A DNA stretch of 41,888 nucleotides from a virus, in the IMG/VR virus record IMGVR_UViG_3300027996_000068, positions 1 through 41,888 of that record; one strand, 5' to 3'. The position numbers and the translations under genes were made by a program. Each line of letters opens with the position of its first letter. The stretch's first letter is position 1. Shown here piece after piece: positions 7,264 to 41,888 of this stretch. Below the pieces are notes generated by a model. It worked only from the letters and a program-made list of their open reading frames with translations. It made no database searches and was not told the origin of the DNA.

Positions 7264-8991
7264 TCAATCCTTCCACACATTATTATCATCCCATACCGCT
7301 GTATCATCCCATACATAATTAAAACCTGTAAATGCTTGTGTATCTGCATTCAATAACCATGTCGAGGTATCTACTATTGTTCTTTTAATCCATGCTACAA
7401 AGTTCAATGTAAATTGTGTTCTTTCTCTATCATCTCTGCCTAGATGAATTATATCACCTTCTAAGAATATGACTTCATAACGAGTATTATTTATAGTTAA
7501 TTTTGTTAAGCCATCTAGGATATTTTTAACTTGCATAGCTTGTAATTCTGCTGTATCGTGACTAGTGTTTCTTATTAATACTTGGAAAGTTGGTTTCTCT
7601 AAACTCGGTGGTTGTACTCCCATTGCGTGTAAAGCAGGTTGCCCACCTGTTTGGTATATAACCATCAAATTATCAATTGTATCTGGTTTATCATTTCTGT
7701 ATATTGTTGGATTAATTCTAGTTAATATTGATTTAATATCTGTTGTTAATCCTGTTACTACACTAGCTATTGTAACCGTATGAGTCACACTAGGCATGTT
7801 AAATGTTCCTGCTACATGATTTATACTAGTCGATGCTCCTGCGGTAACTGCATGAGTTGTAGTAGGCATGTTTAATGTTCCTGTAACGTGTGCAATGCTA
7901 ACATTCTGTGTAGCTGTTACAGTATGAGTATTAGAAGGAAGGTTTAGTGTTCCTGCACTATGCTCAATTGAAACTTCACCAACTGCGGTAACTGTGTGTG
8001 TTGTAGTAGGGAAATTTAATGTTCCTGCAATATGTGTAATATTAATATTTTCTGTAGCTGTAACTGTGTGAGTTGTGCTAGGCATGTTAAGTGTTCCTGC
8101 ACTATGCTCAATGTTTATTGGTACAGATGCTATTGCTGTAACTGTATGCGTTGTAACAGGCATGTTAAGTGTTCCTGCTGTGTGGTCTATTGTTATTCCA
8201 GATGGCGGATTAATGTAATAGGCATCTTGGTCAGCTTCTAATATACCTCTGTCTGTTGCTCCTATGTCTGAATCAAATATTATTAACTCGCCAAAACCTA
8301 TATCACTTGTATTACCTGCACCTAAATTAGAATGTCCAATTGTTATTCCTGTTAGTGTGTTAGTTCCTACATCTACAGTAATAGGGCTACTATATATAGT
8401 ATTTCCATCTCTGTATGCAGTAGAAGAAGAACTATTAAACAAGTTAGTATAAACATGATAATCTAAATCAAAAGCAATACCTTGGTTTACAATATCTTGC
8501 CCAGCATAAAATTCATGTTGCGTTGAAAAGTGTCCAAATAAAACAGTAGTCCCACCACCGTAATACCAAGTTTTTGCCGAACTAGTAATATCTATTACAC
8601 TTGATATTGTATAAGGTTGCGTTAATGCACTAGAGAATGTTTTTTCAACGCCTTTTGTACCACTTACAGTTCTTACAAGAGGAACACCATTTTTAGTGTC
8701 AATTACTCCTGAACTAACTATTCTAAGTTGTAGTGTTGTTGTATTTTCTATCGCATCATTAACAGGACTACTACTTTGGTCATACCATGTAACAATATAT
8801 CCATCATTACTGCCACAATGTGCTAACAAAGCAGTAGTATCTAAATCACCACTACCGTCAAATCCAATATCTGTTTCAGTATCACCACTTGACTCTCTTA
8901 CCCTTATTGCACTTCCTGCATAGACTGTTAACAACTTTCTAAGTGAGTAAGCTGCTTTTGACGAAGCTGTTAAACTATTTAGTATTCCCAA
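7264..8991 (-). CDS. Tail terminator fused to a lectin-like domain and six tandem repeats
   Basis: A 575-residue three-part protein. Residues 5-260 resemble the lectin-like / arabinofuranosidase-B-like beta domain of phage proteins: 'AYSLRKLLTVYAGSAIRVR', 'DIGFDGSGDLDTTALLAHC', 'GYIVTWYDQS'. Residues 266-408 are six copies of a 22-26 residue unit H-x2-GTLNMP-x2-THTVTA. Residues 414-540 ('TDIKSILTRINPTIY', 'PTFQVLIRNTSHDTAELQ', 'FLEGDIIHLGRDDRERTQF') look like a minor capsid / tail terminator protein, and the gene lies where the tail terminator gene belongs, after the connector genes and before the tail tube. The C-terminus has a WDDTAVWDDNNVW strand repeat. A terminator ring carrying large external domains would decorate the neck of the particle. 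Domain names are pattern-based; the fusion itself is read directly. Confidence 0.75.
   Translation of the reverse strand: MGILNSLTASSKAAYSLRKLLTVYAGSAIRVRESSGDTETDIGFDGSGDLDTTALLAHCGSNDGYIVTWYDQSSSPVNDAIENTTTLQLRIVSSGVIDTKNGVPLVRTVSGTKGVEKTFSSALTQPYTISSVIDITSSAKTWYYGGGTTVLFGHFSTQHEFYAGQDIVNQGIAFDLDYHVYTNLFNSSSSTAYRDGNTIYSSPITVDVGTNTLTGITIGHSNLGAGNTSDIGFGELIIFDSDIGATDRGILEADQDAYYINPPSGITIDHTAGTLNMPVTTHTVTAIASVPINIEHSAGTLNMPSTTHTVTATENINITHIAGTLNFPTTTHTVTAVGEVSIEHSAGTLNLPSNTHTVTATQNVSIAHVTGTLNMPTTTHAVTAGASTSINHVAGTFNMPSVTHTVTIASVVTGLTTDIKSILTRINPTIYRNDKPDTIDNLMVIYQTGGQPALHAMGVQPPSLEKPTFQVLIRNTSHDTAELQAMQVKNILDGLTKLTINNTRYEVIFLEGDIIHLGRDDRERTQFTLNFVAWIKRTIVDTSTWLLNADTQAFTGFNYVWDDTAVWDDNNVWKD
7768..8196 (-). 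repeat. Six coding tandem repeats within the tail terminator fusion
   Basis: Six diverged copies of a 66-78 base unit encode H-x2-GTLNMP-x2-THTVTA. Each copy keeps two His and the GT(L/F)N(M/F/L)P core, while the linker between copies varies in length and sequence. DNA identity is partial, so the repeats are old. The opposite strand of this array contains a meaningless Cys-rich frame. Confidence 0.85.
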
Positions 8992-16273: not shown

Positions 16274-16789
16274 TTATATTAAATATTTCCAAGACGTTCC
16301 CTTTTTAATCCTAAGAATAGATGTAGATGACACGCCGTAAATTTCAGCAATATCTTTCATCATTACCTTATTTTTTAAAAGTTCCCTTATCTCAAAAACA
16401 TCTTTTTCTTTTAATTTTGCCCTACCATTTTTTTCACCCTGCAAAATGTAACCTTTACCATACATATAATTTTCGGCACCCTTATGAGATTCACTCATTT
16501 TCTGTTTAACTTCTTCCGTATATGTATAATTAGATTTGTGCATTGGATTTTTATTGCCAATCATTTTTCCTTTTAATCCTTTAGAAATTTTATCTCTAGT
16601 TTTTTGATTGTGTTTTATATTTAAATTGCAAGTTACATTTACTCTTTTATTATATCCAGTTTCAACATTAAAACTCTTATGAATATTTGTCCAATATTGT
16701 TCTCTTAATAATAAATCTTTTTTATTTGTTTTTTCAATTATTTTAAATTTGAAATTACTTTCCTCAAATTCATTCCAATCTTTCTGCAT
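16274..16789 (-). pseudogene. N-terminally truncated GIY-YIG homing endonuclease with NUMOD3 repeats
   Basis: From the ATG at 16789 the frame gives 171 residues. It is open further to 16849 and there encodes 'RSERWYSEPLLRKNKHWLED', which resembles the middle of GIY-YIG homing enzymes (x-RW-x-EH-xx-LLRKNKHW). The upstream part with the GIY...YIG motif is missing: a TGA at 16850 and the end of the minor capsid gene lie there. Downstream parts remain: 'RDKISKGLKGKMIGNKNPMHKS' and 'VKQKMSESHKG' are NUMOD3-type DNA-binding repeats, and 'MMKDIAEIYGVSSTSILRIKKG' is a helix-turn-helix. It probably binds DNA but should not cut. Free-standing homing genes often sit between phage structural genes, as here. 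Confidence 0.72.
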
Positions 16790-28094: not shown

Positions 28095-28383
28095 TATCTA
28101 ACATATCTAACGTGCATCTAACGTAATTTTACAAATGTAAGACACTTCAACACCTACTTACTAGCCTGTTTCAAGAAATATCTAACATATCTAACGTTTT
28201 TTTAGACTTAATACTATATAAGATAAAAAATATTTATTTATTATTTTACTATTATAAATTTTCTCTCGTATATATATAATATATATGTTAGATATGTTAG
28301 ATATGTTAGATACTTATATTAAAGCCTTGATACCACTCACTTAAATATCTAACATTTTATCTAACATAATTTTAAATGTTAGA
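28095..28383. repeat. Iteron cluster with AT-rich core: candidate replication origin
   Basis: The core TCTAAC (consensus ATATCTAAC) occurs seven times on the + strand (28098, 28107, 28118, 28181, 28190, 28348, 28360) and four times on the - strand (28287, 28296, 28305, 28378). Copies are mostly spaced nine bases, and the 20-mer ATATCTAACATATCTAACGT occurs twice 83 bp apart. Between the groups, 28199-28285 is almost pure A/T, like a DNA unwinding element. The region lies between the primase/ATPase genes and the helicase gene and holds no gene except the very end of the ATPase gene. Confidence 0.8.
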
Positions 28384-30220
28384 TATCTTTAAAACTTTCT
28401 TTACATTCTTCTGTTACTACCTCGTTTACAAACTTAATATAATTAGCTTTAACCCCAAAACACATAGTATTGTGAATCATTCTATCTTGGCTATTTCTTA
28501 AAACTTTATCTCTCTTAGACCATATTTTTAACATCGAATTTAAATCATAGTTATGTTTATTCATTAACTCACTTAGTTTTTCTTTAGAGAATAATATATA
28601 ACTACTTGTCATCTTTCCCCATATTTCTCCACTATTGTCAGTTTCTTTAAATCTATTAATATTAGTCGCTATGGTACTCATAACAAACTGATAACATCTT
28701 TCAGTAACATCTATTTCTTTAGCTGTTAATAAATATTCCTTAACGTCATCTAACTTTATAGGTTCTTCTTCTTTATATATACATTCACAGGCTAATCTAT
28801 CTCCTAGCAATATCATACTAATAGCCATAGCTTGTTTTTCAGTAGTATCACATATTTCTAATACATTCTTAAATATCTTTTTATACTCTGTATTTATATA
28901 TTCAGATTTATCTTTTATATATTTTACAAACTCAATCCCTGCGTATCCATAATTGCAACTTATAAAATCAACTACATCTTTTCCATTTTCAACTACAACT
29001 TTATCATTAACATCTACTTCTATAACTCTGTTCTTAACACCACCACCACTATTATCTTTAGTAATAGGATCTTCACCAGTAAATAAAAATGAATTTTTCC
29101 ATGTTCTCATTTCATTATTCTGACTAAATGTCATTCTTCCACGCTCTACACCTTCACATATCTTCATTATCAATGTATCGTAATTGTCGAACTTGTTTTT
29201 AATAAGTTGTAACTCATCTCCTGCAAATGGTATATTTCTTAAAAATGCACACGTTGACATCATACTATTGGCTGTCATGTTCATGGTCTTTGTAAGTTTA
29301 CCCATTGTAGCATTACCCCATATTGACATTGCAACTATCATTCCAACTGTTTTACCTGAACCAGTACCACCCCATAAATGTAAAACATAAGGTAAAGTAT
29401 TTAACTTTTCTATCAATACACTTGAAAAACTAGTAGCCATTTGTATTCTTAATAACTTATTCTTTCTTAGCTTAGATGTATATGAAGTCCATTCTTTAAA
29501 ATCTCCATCTACCTTAATACATTCAAATAAGAATTTATTTTCTCTTTCTCCGTCAAATTTAATGTTTTGGTTGTAAGGCATAAAGTCTTTTTCTACCCAT
29601 CCAAGCCTTGAAACACTCTTATAATGTGGTATAATATAGTTATCAGGTTCATCATTAATGCTTTCAATTTTATCAAATTGATTCAAACTAATACAATCAT
29701 ATAAATAAGACATTAAGTCTTTAGAATTTAAACTATTAACATCAATACCTAGATTAGATAATTCAACTATCTTGTGCAAATTTGAGATAGTTGTTTTTTC
29801 GCAAATTAAACTTTGCCACCTACCATGTTTATAAAAACATAACTTTAATTTTTCTATACCTGAATCCATATTTTTATATGTTTCTGATGGAACAATCATC
29901 ATCCTAGAAGCTTCTATTTCATCAACTTCACCAGTTTCATTATTTGCAACTTGTTTATATATTCCATCTTGATTAGTTATCCAACTACCAGTACATATTG
30001 CAGAATATTCTTTGTTAAATCCACATAAATTATACTTTTCTAACTTGCTATTAGCTTGTTTTTTCTTATAAGCCTTAAACTTTTTATCAAATATTCCTAT
30101 TACTCTTAACTCCCTAGCCTTCATTTTAACTTGCATTTCTAAATCTTCATTTCCCATAAGCTGTTTTAAGGTAGTTTCTTTTACTATATCTAAGTCCGTC
30201 AATGCTTCAACGTTCATCAA
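28379..30220 (-). CDS. DUF927-type ATPase (putative replicative helicase)
   Basis: A 613-residue protein. Walker A is 'WGGTGSGKT' (284-291) within 'PYVLHLWGGTGSGKTVGMIV', followed by 'IPFAGDELQLIK' as Walker B near 335. N-terminal residues 100-275 contain 'RLGWVEKDFMPYNQNIKFDGE', which is the DUF927 pattern. Such proteins act as primase-associated helicase-like ATPases in mobile elements and phages. It overlaps the CHC2 primase gene by four bases (ATGA), so both form one priming/unwinding unit. The stop lies inside the iteron cluster. Confidence 0.85.
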   Translation of the reverse strand: MMNVEALTDLDIVKETTLKQLMGNEDLEMQVKMKARELRVIGIFDKKFKAYKKKQANSKLEKYNLCGFNKEYSAICTGSWITNQDGIYKQVANNETGEVDEIEASRMMIVPSETYKNMDSGIEKLKLCFYKHGRWQSLICEKTTISNLHKIVELSNLGIDVNSLNSKDLMSYLYDCISLNQFDKIESINDEPDNYIIPHYKSVSRLGWVEKDFMPYNQNIKFDGERENKFLFECIKVDGDFKEWTSYTSKLRKNKLLRIQMATSFSSVLIEKLNTLPYVLHLWGGTGSGKTVGMIVAMSIWGNATMGKLTKTMNMTANSMMSTCAFLRNIPFAGDELQLIKNKFDNYDTLIMKICEGVERGRMTFSQNNEMRTWKNSFLFTGEDPITKDNSGGGVKNRVIEVDVNDKVVVENGKDVVDFISCNYGYAGIEFVKYIKDKSEYINTEYKKIFKNVLEICDTTEKQAMAISMILLGDRLACECIYKEEEPIKLDDVKEYLLTAKEIDVTERCYQFVMSTIATNINRFKETDNSGEIWGKMTSSYILFSKEKLSELMNKHNYDLNSMLKIWSKRDKVLRNSQDRMIHNTMCFGVKANYIKFVNEVVTEECKESFKDI

Positions 30221-34706: not shown

Positions 34707-34727
34707 TATTAATAGGAGGTGAAAACA

Positions 34728-34970
34728 ATGCAAGCAAATTTTAGTCTATCAAAAGAAATAATGGGAAAATTAACAAAAGATAAGAAAGATTCTGGAAGAG
34801 ATAAAAGTGCTACAGTTACAAGAGCATTACAACGTTACTGGTTAGCAGATGTAGAAGTTGAAAACATGACAATTGAAGAAGTTAAAATAACTTTTGACGA
34901 AGTAAACGATAAATTAGCATATTTAAGAAAATTAGAACACAAACTTTATATTAGATTAGAAGAAGTTTAA
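34728..34970 (+). CDS. Ribbon-helix-helix repressor of the divergent switch
   Basis: An 80-residue protein. The start is the ATG at 34728, seven bases after AGGAGGT; an upstream GTG at 34719 is part of the ribosome site. 'MQANFSLSKEIMGKLTKDKKDSGRDKSATVTRALQRYWL' is an RHH fold: strand, helix, 'SGRDKS' turn, helix. Residues 45-80 form a second helical part that may multimerise. It is encoded right behind the operators, so autorepression and control of the leftward promoter are likely. It is followed by a Rha-type gene. Confidence 0.8.
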   Translation: MQANFSLSKEIMGKLTKDKKDSGRDKSATVTRALQRYWLADVEVENMTIEEVKITFDEVNDKLAYLRKLEHKLYIRLEEV

Positions 34971-35014: not shown

Positions 35015-35695
35015 ATGACAAGTTTAGTTATGATAAAGAAAGTTAAAAATGAAGAATTAGCTATGACAACCAGTAATGATATTTCAGAAATGTTTGATAA
35101 AAGGCATGATAATGTCTTAAGTAGTATTAAAAATTTAGAGTGTAGTGATGAGTTTCGACTCCTAAATTTCAAGGAATCAAACTACAAAAATTCACAAGGA
35201 AAAACATACTTAGAATATTTAATTACTAAAGATGGATTTGTTTTTTTAGCATTTGGATTTAGTGGTAAAAAAGCAGCTGCATTTAAAGAAGAATATATAA
35301 AACAATTTAATAAGATGGAATCACTTATAAAAGAAAGACAAACACAAGAATGGCAACAAGCAAGATTACAAAGTAAGAATTTCAATAAAGAATTAACAGA
35401 TGAAATAAAAGTTTTCATTGAATATGCTACAGAACAAGGTAGCAAAAGTCCAAAAATGTATTATGTGCATTTTGCAAAGCTAATTAATAAAGCATTGGGT
35501 ATTAGTTCAAATGAAATTGATTTAACTAATCAGATAACTTTAAGGAACAAAGCAATACTTATAGAGGTTATTGAAAAAGAATTAGTTGAGAATATGAAAA
35601 ACACTGTGTTTTATAAGGAGATATTTAAGAATTGTAAGATTAAAGTTGAGCAGCTTATTAATTTTATACCAAGTTTGAATAAAAAGGAGGATTAA
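35015..35695 (+). CDS. Rha-family regulatory protein (first copy)
   Basis: A 226-residue protein. Residues 5-105 are the phage Rha domain: 'TSNDISEMFDKRHDNVLSSIKNL', 'YKNSQGKTYLEYLITKDGFVFLAFGFSGKKAAAFKEEYIKQFNKMES'. The C-terminal half ('IKVFIEYATEQGSKSPKMYYVHFAKLINKALG') is shared with the second copy at 37894. Rha proteins are found in temperate phages as regulators or antirepressors. AACTAGGAGGAAC before the ATG is a good ribosome site. It is cotranscribed with the RHH gene before it and a zinc protein after it. Confidence 0.85.
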   Translation: MTSLVMIKKVKNEELAMTTSNDISEMFDKRHDNVLSSIKNLECSDEFRLLNFKESNYKNSQGKTYLEYLITKDGFVFLAFGFSGKKAAAFKEEYIKQFNKMESLIKERQTQEWQQARLQSKNFNKELTDEIKVFIEYATEQGSKSPKMYYVHFAKLINKALGISSNEIDLTNQITLRNKAILIEVIEKELVENMKNTVFYKEIFKNCKIKVEQLINFIPSLNKKED

Positions 35696-36167: not shown

Positions 36168-37331
36168 GTGGAAAAGAAATTACTATATAAAGTATTAAGT
36201 TATTTAGGATTTATAACTTCTGCAATATTCACTTATTTATCATATGTAAATGAAAGTTCAATTATGTTCGATAAAGTCCTTGCGTGTTGTATGACCCTTT
36301 GCACGCAAGGAGGAAGCTTCATCTTCTTCTATCACGCAACGCAAAAAAAGAAGAAGGCCTACATGATTATGGCAATACTATTATTTCTATTAAGCATCTA
36401 CGCAACTACAGACTATCAGGCTAAAAAGCAAGATAATACTTCACGCAAGGATTACGCAAACAGTGAAGAATATAATCAAAGTAAATTACAAAAACAATTA
36501 GTGTTAGAGAATAGGACCATAGCAATAGCAGACAAGAAAATATTAGAAGATGATATAAAAAGTGTTAGAACTGATATAAAAAGTGTTAAATCAAGATATA
36601 ATACGCAAATTAATTCACTAGTAACTGAAAAGAGCAAGGTAAAAGCCAACTGGCGTAAGGAACAAATAGACATTGAAATAAGGAATCTAAATAAAGAAAT
36701 GAATACTATTATTAAAACTAAAGAAACATTGCTAGAATCTAAAATAAACGAGGCTAAAGATATAAATACTACTGTTAATCTGAATGAGTATAATGTTAAT
36801 GATGAAGTTATTATAAAGATATCTAGTAGCAGTATGGGAATCATAAGCAGATTCAAAGGTTGGTTTGGTTGGGATGAAATGTTTTTAAGTTTTTTACAGC
36901 AAGTTTTATTTTCAATAATCTTTGAATGTACCGCAATATTTTTTCATTTGCTTAGCTGTGAGTCGCAACTATCGAGTATTACACGCAAGTCTGAAAAGCC
37001 TTTGCACTCAATGGATACGCAAGAATCGAAACCAGTTACGCAATTTAAAAAAGCAGATTTAAAAGTTGTAAAATGCTCACCCAAACCACGCAAAGCAATT
37101 TCACCCACCATAACAAATATTGATGATGACGAAGCTAGGAAATATTTAAAAGTAATGTATGAAACAGCTCAAAATAAAAAATGTATAGGATATAAAAAAA
37201 TATCTGAATTAGCTGGAATAAAAGAAAGTAAAGGTAGAAATATATTTGAGTATTTAAAATTAACAAATGCAATACAAAAGATAGATGGTAGCATGACTAT
37301 TAAAAAAAATAGGGATGAGGTAGCTATATGA
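36168..37331 (+). CDS. Membrane-anchored protein with coiled coil and C-terminal winged-helix-like domain
   Basis: A 387-residue protein (GTG start, GGAGG seven bases before). Hydrophobic segments at about 10-27, 36-55 and 65-82 cross the membrane, then a long coiled coil (102-200), a fourth hydrophobic segment (238-262, 'FLSFLQQVLFSIIFECTAIFF'), a Pro/Lys linker and a C-terminal domain (321-380) with 'IGYKKISELAGIKESKGRNIFEYLKLTNAIQKIDGSMTI', which reads as a winged helix. The gene contains twelve ACGCAA motifs in all three codon phases. It could tether phage DNA to the membrane, like phi29 p16.7 in principle, or act in partition. No family recognised; function is inference. Confidence 0.72.
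   Translation: MEKKLLYKVLSYLGFITSAIFTYLSYVNESSIMFDKVLACCMTLCTQGGSFIFFYHATQKKKKAYMIMAILLFLLSIYATTDYQAKKQDNTSRKDYANSEEYNQSKLQKQLVLENRTIAIADKKILEDDIKSVRTDIKSVKSRYNTQINSLVTEKSKVKANWRKEQIDIEIRNLNKEMNTIIKTKETLLESKINEAKDINTTVNLNEYNVNDEVIIKISSSSMGIISRFKGWFGWDEMFLSFLQQVLFSIIFECTAIFFHLLSCESQLSSITRKSEKPLHSMDTQESKPVTQFKKADLKVVKCSPKPRKAISPTITNIDDDEARKYLKVMYETAQNKKCIGYKKISELAGIKESKGRNIFEYLKLTNAIQKIDGSMTIKKNRDEVAI
36278..37093 (+). repeat. Intragenic ACGCAA motif array
   Basis: ACGCAA occurs at 36303, 36334, 36339, 36400, 36443, 36454, 36603, 36983, 37017, 37038 and 37088, and inverted (TTGCGT) at 36280. The first pair forms a perfect 10-bp inverted repeat, TCCTTGCGTG/CACGCAAGGA (36277-36286 and 36302-36311). 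Five copies are in codon phase 0, three in phase 1, three in phase 2, so the protein sequence does not explain them. Elsewhere I saw only scattered single copies (for example 7623, 8518, 13881, 41546). Confidence 0.88.
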
Positions 37332-37706: not shown

Positions 37707-37735
37707 TTGACTCATATGTTACAATGTGTTACCAT
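37707..37735 (+). promoter_or_regulatory. Promoter of the second RHH-Rha unit
   Basis: TTGACT (37707-37712), 17-base spacer, TACCAT (37730-37735, 4 of 6 match). TGTTAC is repeated at 37717 and 37727, ten bases apart, as expected for RHH operator half-sites. Confidence 0.55.
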
Positions 37736-37754
37736 ACTGAAAGGAGGTGATATT

Positions 37755-37925
37755 TTGATTAAAGATACTACGATTACTATAAGAATAAATAGTAAGCAGA
37801 AAATCGTGGCTCAAACCAAAGCAGACAAATTAAACAGATCTTTGACAAACTACATTGAGAATCTCATTAAAATCGACTTAAAGGAGCTGTGTTATGAAGG
37901 AGTTAGTAATAGTGAAGAAGGTTAA
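37755..37925 (+). CDS. Ribbon-helix-helix regulator (TTG start)
   Basis: A 56-residue protein: 'MIKDTTITIRINSKQKIVAQTKADKLNRSLTNYIENLI' is a clear RHH: strand ITIRIN, helix, 'LNRS' turn, helix. TTG at 37755 is chosen because AAGGAGGTG lies six bases before it; the ATG at 37707 would overlap the promoter. It is cotranslated with the second Rha copy (32-base overlap). It is not close in sequence to the RHH at 34728. Confidence 0.75.
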   Translation: MIKDTTITIRINSKQKIVAQTKADKLNRSLTNYIENLIKIDLKELCYEGVSNSEEG

Positions 37926-38577
37926 TAAAAAAGATGTCCCAGTAACAACAACTAAAATTATTGCAGATGAAGTAGGGAAATCACACAGGAGTATTTATTT
38001 GTTAGTAGAAAAGTTTAAAAGTGACTTTGAAATCTTCGGAAGGGTATCATCCCAAATGACACCCTTTGATACAAAAGGTGGTCAACAAAACTTAAAAATT
38101 TATATTTTAAATGAGCAACAAACAACTTTATTAATAACATATCTTAGAAATAACGAAAGAGTTAGAGAGTTTAAAATTAAATTAGTGCAACAATTTTTTG
38201 AAATGAAAGAGTTTATACAACAAAAGCAAACTGACGAATGGAAAGGTGCAAGAGAAGATACTAAGAAATTTAATAGGACCTTAACTGATGCTATAAAAGA
38301 CTTTGTAGAATATGCCGAATCACAAGGAAGTAAAAGTTATAACAGATATTATAAAATTTATGCTGACCTTGTAAATAAATGTTTGAACATTGAATCTGGA
38401 AATAGAAATAATCTATCATCCGATTCAATGCGTGACCAAACATTTATAAGTAAGTTTCTTGAAAAAGAAATCTACAAGGGTATTACCGATAATACTAATT
38501 ATAAACAAATTTATCAGAATTGCAAACATAAAGTTGAATATTTCATGGAATGTTTTGGATTAAAATTAAAAGCTTAA
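37894..38577 (+). CDS. Rha-family regulatory protein (second copy)
   Basis: A 227-residue paralogue of the protein at 35015. The Rha domain has 'TTTKIIADEVGKSHRSIYLLVEKF', 'GGQQNLKIYILNEQQTTLLITYLRNNERVREFKIKLVQQFFEMKEF'. The C-terminal half shares 'DFVEYAESQGSKSYNRYYKIYADLVNKCLN' with 'VFIEYATEQGSKSPKMYYVHFAKLINKALG' of the first copy. The N-terminal half is more diverged, so the two probably recognise different targets. It is preceded by an RHH gene, as is the first copy, and followed by a terminator. Confidence 0.82.
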   Translation: MKELVIVKKVNKKDVPVTTTKIIADEVGKSHRSIYLLVEKFKSDFEIFGRVSSQMTPFDTKGGQQNLKIYILNEQQTTLLITYLRNNERVREFKIKLVQQFFEMKEFIQQKQTDEWKGAREDTKKFNRTLTDAIKDFVEYAESQGSKSYNRYYKIYADLVNKCLNIESGNRNNLSSDSMRDQTFISKFLEKEIYKGITDNTNYKQIYQNCKHKVEYFMECFGLKLKA

Positions 38578-41533: not shown

Positions 41534-41888
41534 TTACTCACCCCCTTGCGTTACTGTTCTACCATTTAAGCCACCATTATATCTAAACTCGTTCTTTATT
41601 ATCCTAGATGTTTTATTTACTGCAAAATCATCTTCTACTATCACTCGGTCAATTCCAACTTCGTGAGCAGGATTCATATTCCAATTAACTTCATTTATAA
41701 ATCTTTCACTCTTAACTGTTTCAATCCAATCTGCTACATCAGATGCTATTGAATCAGATGCGATTAAAGGATTATTTAATTTAATAGATACTGTTTCCTC
41801 ACTATCTCCAATATCATCAAATACTTTTGTAAATATTGATTCAGCACGTTCTTGTACTGTACCAGTAGTGGTTATAGTTGCAAGTCCT
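41534..41888 (-). CDS. Tail hub-like protein, C-terminal part (continues at position 1573-1)
   Basis: The frame from the right edge down to the stop at 41534 gives the last part of the 598-residue tail protein whose start is at 1573. 41758-41883 repeats 1-126, so the unique part is 41534-41757 (74 residues, ending 'RYNGGLNGRTVTQGGE'). The last five bases of the window do not match the left copy and should be ignored. Confidence 0.88.
   Translation of the reverse strand, partial: GLATITTTGTVQERAESIFTKVFDDIGDSEETVSIKLNNPLIASDSIASDVADWIETVKSERFINEVNWNMNPAHEVGIDRVIVEDDFAVNKTSRIIKNEFRYNGGLNGRTVTQGGE
41758..41883. repeat. Right copy of the terminal redundancy (circular closure)
   Basis: Identical to 1-126. 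See the left copy. Together with the uninterrupted tail hub frame across the joint it shows that the molecule is circular or circularly permuted. Confidence 0.93.

Follow-up and report, generated by a model that had tools for sequence, protein, structure and literature searches.

Described systems that anchor or read DNA

In phage phi29, p16.7 is a phage membrane protein with a coiled coil and a C-terminal DNA-binding domain, and it organises the phage DNA at the membrane. It has one membrane segment and a homeodomain-like fold, and we know of no array in its own gene. FtsK/SpoIIIE and Streptomyces TraB are membrane-anchored and carry a C-terminal winged helix that reads short oriented DNA words. 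Replication origins inside genes are also established: lambda O and RepA_N plasmids have their iterons in the gene for the initiator. In Streptococcus pneumoniae, RocS combines a winged helix and a coiled coil with an amphipathic helix to tether DNA to the membrane, and the RocS authors proposed the same tethering for Par of the staphylococcal plasmid pSK1 (PMC11500499). Bacillus subtilis RacA likewise has a winged helix and a coiled coil; its targets are repeated centromere-like sequences, and it anchors DNA to a site on the membrane (PMC11500499).

We analysed the complete viral record IMGVR_UViG_3300027996_000068 (positions 1 to 41,888; 41,888 nucleotides, here called the window). One of its genes, here called the array gene, contains repeated ACGCAA words and encodes a predicted membrane protein (Table 1).

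RocS and pSK1 Par: These resemble what is predicted for the array-gene protein, as each is a single protein with a winged helix and a coiled coil that positions DNA without an NTPase (PMC11500499). Their winged helix is N-terminal, whereas that of the array-gene protein is predicted at the C-terminus (residues 320-378). They are anchored by a C-terminal amphipathic helix with DUF536, whereas about four membrane segments are predicted here, and DUF536 was not among the Pfam matches at E ≤ 0.1. A repeat array is present on our element, but it lies inside the protein's own gene.

RacA: Its polar anchor is DivIVA instead of membrane segments of its own, it carries the winged helix at the N-terminus, and it is chromosomal.

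p16.7: The likeness lies in a phage-encoded membrane protein with a coiled coil and a C-terminal DNA-binding domain, as predicted for the array-gene protein. The two differ in the number of membrane segments (one versus about four) and in the DNA-binding fold (homeodomain-like versus a predicted winged helix). A relation was not detected, as the array-gene protein had no PHROG or Pfam match, and a viral fold library gave no significant match to its low-confidence model.

FtsK/SpoIIIE and TraB: The layout is similar, but no ATPase or motor domain was matched in the array-gene protein.

Lambda O and RepA_N: The common feature is that short DNA words recur within a gene whose product binds DNA, as predicted here. 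The array-gene product differs in being a predicted membrane protein, its array is irregular, and a likely origin lies elsewhere.

Because the predicted winged helix is located at the other end of the protein and neither DUF536, a motor domain, nor a sequence relation was found, we did not file the array-gene protein under any of these systems, although it would function in a similar way if the tether proposed below is right.

Table 1 Features of the ACGCAA locus and of the candidate origin (positions in the window)
Feature	Position	Strand	Description
Array gene (ORFan)	36168-37331	+	387 aa, GTG start; no family or homologue found
Predicted architecture of its protein			About four TM segments (residues ~9-27, 37-55, 64-82, 246-264); coiled-coil hairpin (~94-233); linker; winged-helix-like domain (~320-378)
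Stretch coding for the predicted winged helix	37125-37301	+	Helices 320-335, 342-349, 353-365; strands 369-372, 375-378
First (Y)ACGCAA cluster	36280-36608	+	36280 (minus strand), 36303, 36334, 36339, 36400, 36443, 36454, 36603
Second (Y)ACGCAA cluster	36983-37093	+	36983, 37017, 37038, 37088; within the linker-coding part before the winged helix
Perfect 10-bp inverted repeat	36277-36286 / 36302-36311		TCCTTGCGTG / CACGCAAGGA; 15-bp gap; built from the first two ACGCAA copies
Small DNA-binding-like protein	34719-34970		Near the array gene; fold assignment weak
Two Rha-family regulators	35015-35695, 37894-38577	+	Flank the array gene in a short plus-strand block; mutually 32% identical
Small ORF, ribbon-helix-helix-like by eye	37707-37925	+	Downstream of the array gene; candidate array binder; no confident family match
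Separate iteron array	28095-28386		10 copies of GTTAGATA, 11 of ATCTAAC/GTTAGAT (28096-28386); intergenic, beside the primase/helicase gene

The ACGCAA array

On both strands of the window, ACGCAA occurs 20 times. Twelve copies lie within 36280-37093, and the remaining ~41 kb hold 8. Eleven of the copies in the array gene are on the plus strand and one is inverted. These copies, the two clusters, and the inverted repeat formed by the first two copies (36277-36311) were all found where the original prediction had placed them. The heptamer YACGCAA is the better form of the site, as 11 of the 13 exact heptamers of the genome are within the array gene. The distances between copies are irregular (5 to 380 bp), and a check for helical phasing found none. 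Copy 36603 is the sole one within the part coding for the coiled-coil core, and the part coding for the winged helix has none. A literature search for ACGCAA gave unrelated papers only. In a scan for three clustered YACGCAA, no comparable non-tandem, AT-rich array was present among the matches listed.

The 12 copies are distributed over the codon phases as 5/4/3; hence, all three phases are used, as had been noticed earlier. Dinucleotide shuffles of the whole window gave on average 8.8 and at most 17 ACGCAA, compared with the 20 observed. Within the gene, synonymous codon shuffles (20,000) averaged 2.2 copies and peaked at 9, and synonymous codons resampled from the phage's own usage (100,000) averaged 0.84 copies and peaked at 6. 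The observed number of 12 was reached in 0 of 120,000 synonymous randomisations. The copies introduce otherwise rare codons, notably CGC, which provides 25% of the Arg codons in the array gene (3 copies) versus 1.7% in other large genes. Likewise, ACG provides 19% of the Thr codons versus 7%. We also screened all hexamers in 172 related phage loci (2.53 Mb), covering ORFs of 150 codons or more and leaving out loci which had been fetched by the ACGCAA pattern. Among the 3,003 ORFs, the array gene ranked first for an extreme non-tandem, three-phase hexamer array.

As the array exceeds both codon nulls, uses three phases, and leads the ORF screen, the amino acid sequence does not explain it. For this one genome, there is strong evidence that the ACGCAA words are selected as nucleic acid and not as protein sequence, which bears out the claim of selection at the DNA level. 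The same three results make it extremely improbable that the array arose by an accident of composition or codon usage or reflects a repeat in the protein; the general caution due to a motif that was picked after the fact is the one point in favour of such an origin.

A second word, CCACCA, scored above ACGCAA in an 820-bp interval near 40.1 kb. It falls on the strand opposite to a gene for a glycine-rich protein and is best explained by the codons of that gene.

Selected words in a coding sequence could also be transcriptional operators or RNA-level signals, i.e., sites for autoregulation or mRNA sites recognised by an RNase or RNA-binding protein. DNA anchoring would then play no part. The sense orientation of 11 of the 12 copies would fit, and the array gene offers a large target for self-control. 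For operators, the layout is unusual because only the first copies are near the gene start, and the second cluster begins 815 bp 3' of the start codon. At the RNA level, the inverted copy and its neighbour are the difficulty, as their perfect 10-bp inverted repeat fits DNA binding, although an RNA hairpin is possible there. Overall, we consider such signals quite unlikely.

The array-gene protein

Hydropathy predicts four hydrophobic membrane segments, in agreement with the membrane segments that had been proposed. The positive-inside pattern, with basic residues both in loop 2 (KKKK) and at the C-terminal tail, suggests that both termini are cytoplasmic and that the coiled-coil hairpin is outside. 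In the AlphaFold model, which was calculated from the single sequence, this hairpin is the only confident part (pLDDT > 90). The C-terminal region is modelled as helix-helix-helix-strand-strand, which is the order of a winged helix, with pLDDT values of ~55-75 in the helices and ~30-50 in the wing. When the C-terminal domain was folded alone, the model was poor and the wing was absent. Foldseek aligned the domain with the DNA-binding winged helices of SloR (probability 1.00) and CggR (0.97), at E ~0.1-0.2. With a model of modest confidence, the C-terminal domain is probably a winged helix, as the original prediction had suspected.

No convincing match to the protein was found in Pfam, PHROGs, NCBIfam, or PADLOC. 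tblastn searches against phages and plasmids gave no relative, and neither did a tblastn search with the C-terminal domain, a tblastn search against all loci collected for comparison, or scans of viral and genome contigs for its peptides. No homologue of the array gene was found in 35 related genomes and phage records or in 391 genomes of one class. Six weak matches among the latter turned out to be unrelated proteins upon inspection. Scans with the neighbour genes (Rha, primase) did not find a close sibling phage, nor did scans for the ACGCAA inverted repeat and the 28-kb iteron find a sibling. At the sensitivities used, the array-gene protein is new, as none of the collections we searched yielded a relative by sequence.

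A likely replication origin at 28 kb

The iteron array at 28 kb (Table 1) surfaced when we tested which words cluster in the window. Its ATCTAAC/GTTAGAT copies are arranged in opposing blocks around a 70-bp tract (28215-28284) consisting of 91% A/T. In four relatives, the primases have arrays at the corresponding position that are built from different words (GGTAAGA, GGTTAC, GGTAACC, and GTTACA). These relatives are a Eubacterium prophage (L188, 41% identical), Anaerostipes phage AC844P1 (L123), Thermoanaerobacterium phage THSA-485A (L122), and a further locus (L264). Diverged words at a conserved place beside the primase are expected of an origin with coevolving iterons. From these sequence comparisons, the array at 28095-28386 is likely the replication origin and separate from the ACGCAA device. 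The cumulative GC skew tracks the gene direction and gave no separate signal for an origin.

For the ACGCAA array, the original prediction had named the lambda origin as the closest known logic. This is now disfavoured because a different, intergenic iteron array adjoins the primase/helicase gene, and its position is conserved in the four relatives. ACGCAA might still mark a second origin of the lambda O or RepA_N kind that is used in a plasmid-like state, and the array gene indeed encodes a DNA-binding-like domain. However, the spacing is irregular, the protein is a predicted membrane protein without an initiator family match, and the canonical combination of iterons and an A/T tract is found at 28 kb. 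An origin within the array gene is, therefore, very unlikely. We infer that the alternative in the original prediction, a centromere-like site with a membrane anchor, is the best remaining reading.

A putative membrane tether reading its own gene

Based on sequence, models, and analogy, we tentatively explain the YACGCAA array as a set of cis-acting protein-binding sites which are read by the winged helix of the protein's own C-terminus and hold the phage DNA at the membrane. The gene that holds the sites encodes a putative membrane protein of the phage, and the likeliest reader would be this protein's own winged helix. This protein would be inserted in the host membrane with the winged helix in the cytoplasm. 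Binding of the winged helix to the array on phage DNA molecules would then keep the DNA at the membrane. Such tethering could serve the segregation of an extrachromosomal prophage or the placement of replicating genomes, and binding to the array could additionally regulate the array gene itself.

Several features argue for the tether, namely the array itself (in excess of the codon and composition nulls, in three phases, and with rare codons), the predicted membrane segments with a cytoplasmic C-terminus, the hairpin, the winged-helix order of elements, the Foldseek matches, and the likely origin elsewhere. A precedent is given by RocS and, by proposal, pSK1 Par, which tether DNA without an NTPase. 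Against the tether, no homologue was found, which leaves both array and protein without evolutionary conservation. The winged-helix model is a single-sequence model of modest confidence, the domain folded poorly on its own, and the Foldseek E values are ~0.1-0.2. In addition, other small DNA-binding-like proteins are encoded nearby (34719-34970, 37707-37925, and the two Rha regulators).

One of these neighbours could be the true reader, so that the array would be its site or centromere and the array gene would simply host it. Partition proteins of the ribbon-helix-helix type (omega/ParR) have sites of heptamer-like length; the heptamers in the array gene are of such a length and mostly in one orientation, and small proteins of that sort are apparently encoded close by. 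Ribbon-helix-helix centromeres are, however, usually tight arrays, whereas the copies here are 5 to 380 bp apart. Moreover, a ParA/ParM partner was not recognised among the ORFs scanned, and the ribbon-helix-helix fold assignments are weak. We regard a reader other than the array-gene protein as unlikely.

Phage genome and possible extrachromosomal state

The contig ends share 126 exact bases (1-126 = 41758-41883), with 5 stray bases beyond, and the left-end tail gene continues into the right end of the contig. The overlap and the tail gene running across the ends indicate a closed or circularly permuted genome of ~41.76 kb; the record is an essentially complete phage genome of this size. It carries genes of a tailed phage, i.e., terminase, portal, head, and tail genes, an ERF recombinase, a primase/helicase, an amidase, and the two Rha regulators. 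Neither an integrase nor a ParA/ParM-like partner NTPase was recognised among the ORFs scanned. As the contig closes and no such genes were recognised, the phage may persist extrachromosomally and need a stability function. A plasmid-like (non-integrating) prophage state is thus possible from the gene content.

The membrane tether could accordingly act in partition, although a virulent phage would not need partition, which argues against this role. In the most specific form, the locus would be a one-gene partition or tethering device, its centromere lying wholly within the gene of its own integral-membrane winged-helix reader, and the phage might persist as a plasmid. We consider this form doubtful. 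If it is true, the anchor, the reader, and the site of a partition device would be combined in one gene of ~1.2 kb.

Two observations concern the structural genes of the phage. An ORF among the head genes (16274-16789) has NUMOD3 and a resolvase-type HTH and resembles part of a homing endonuclease. Another structural gene contains an internal 144-bp unit, which is repeated 1.9 times (7839-8112).
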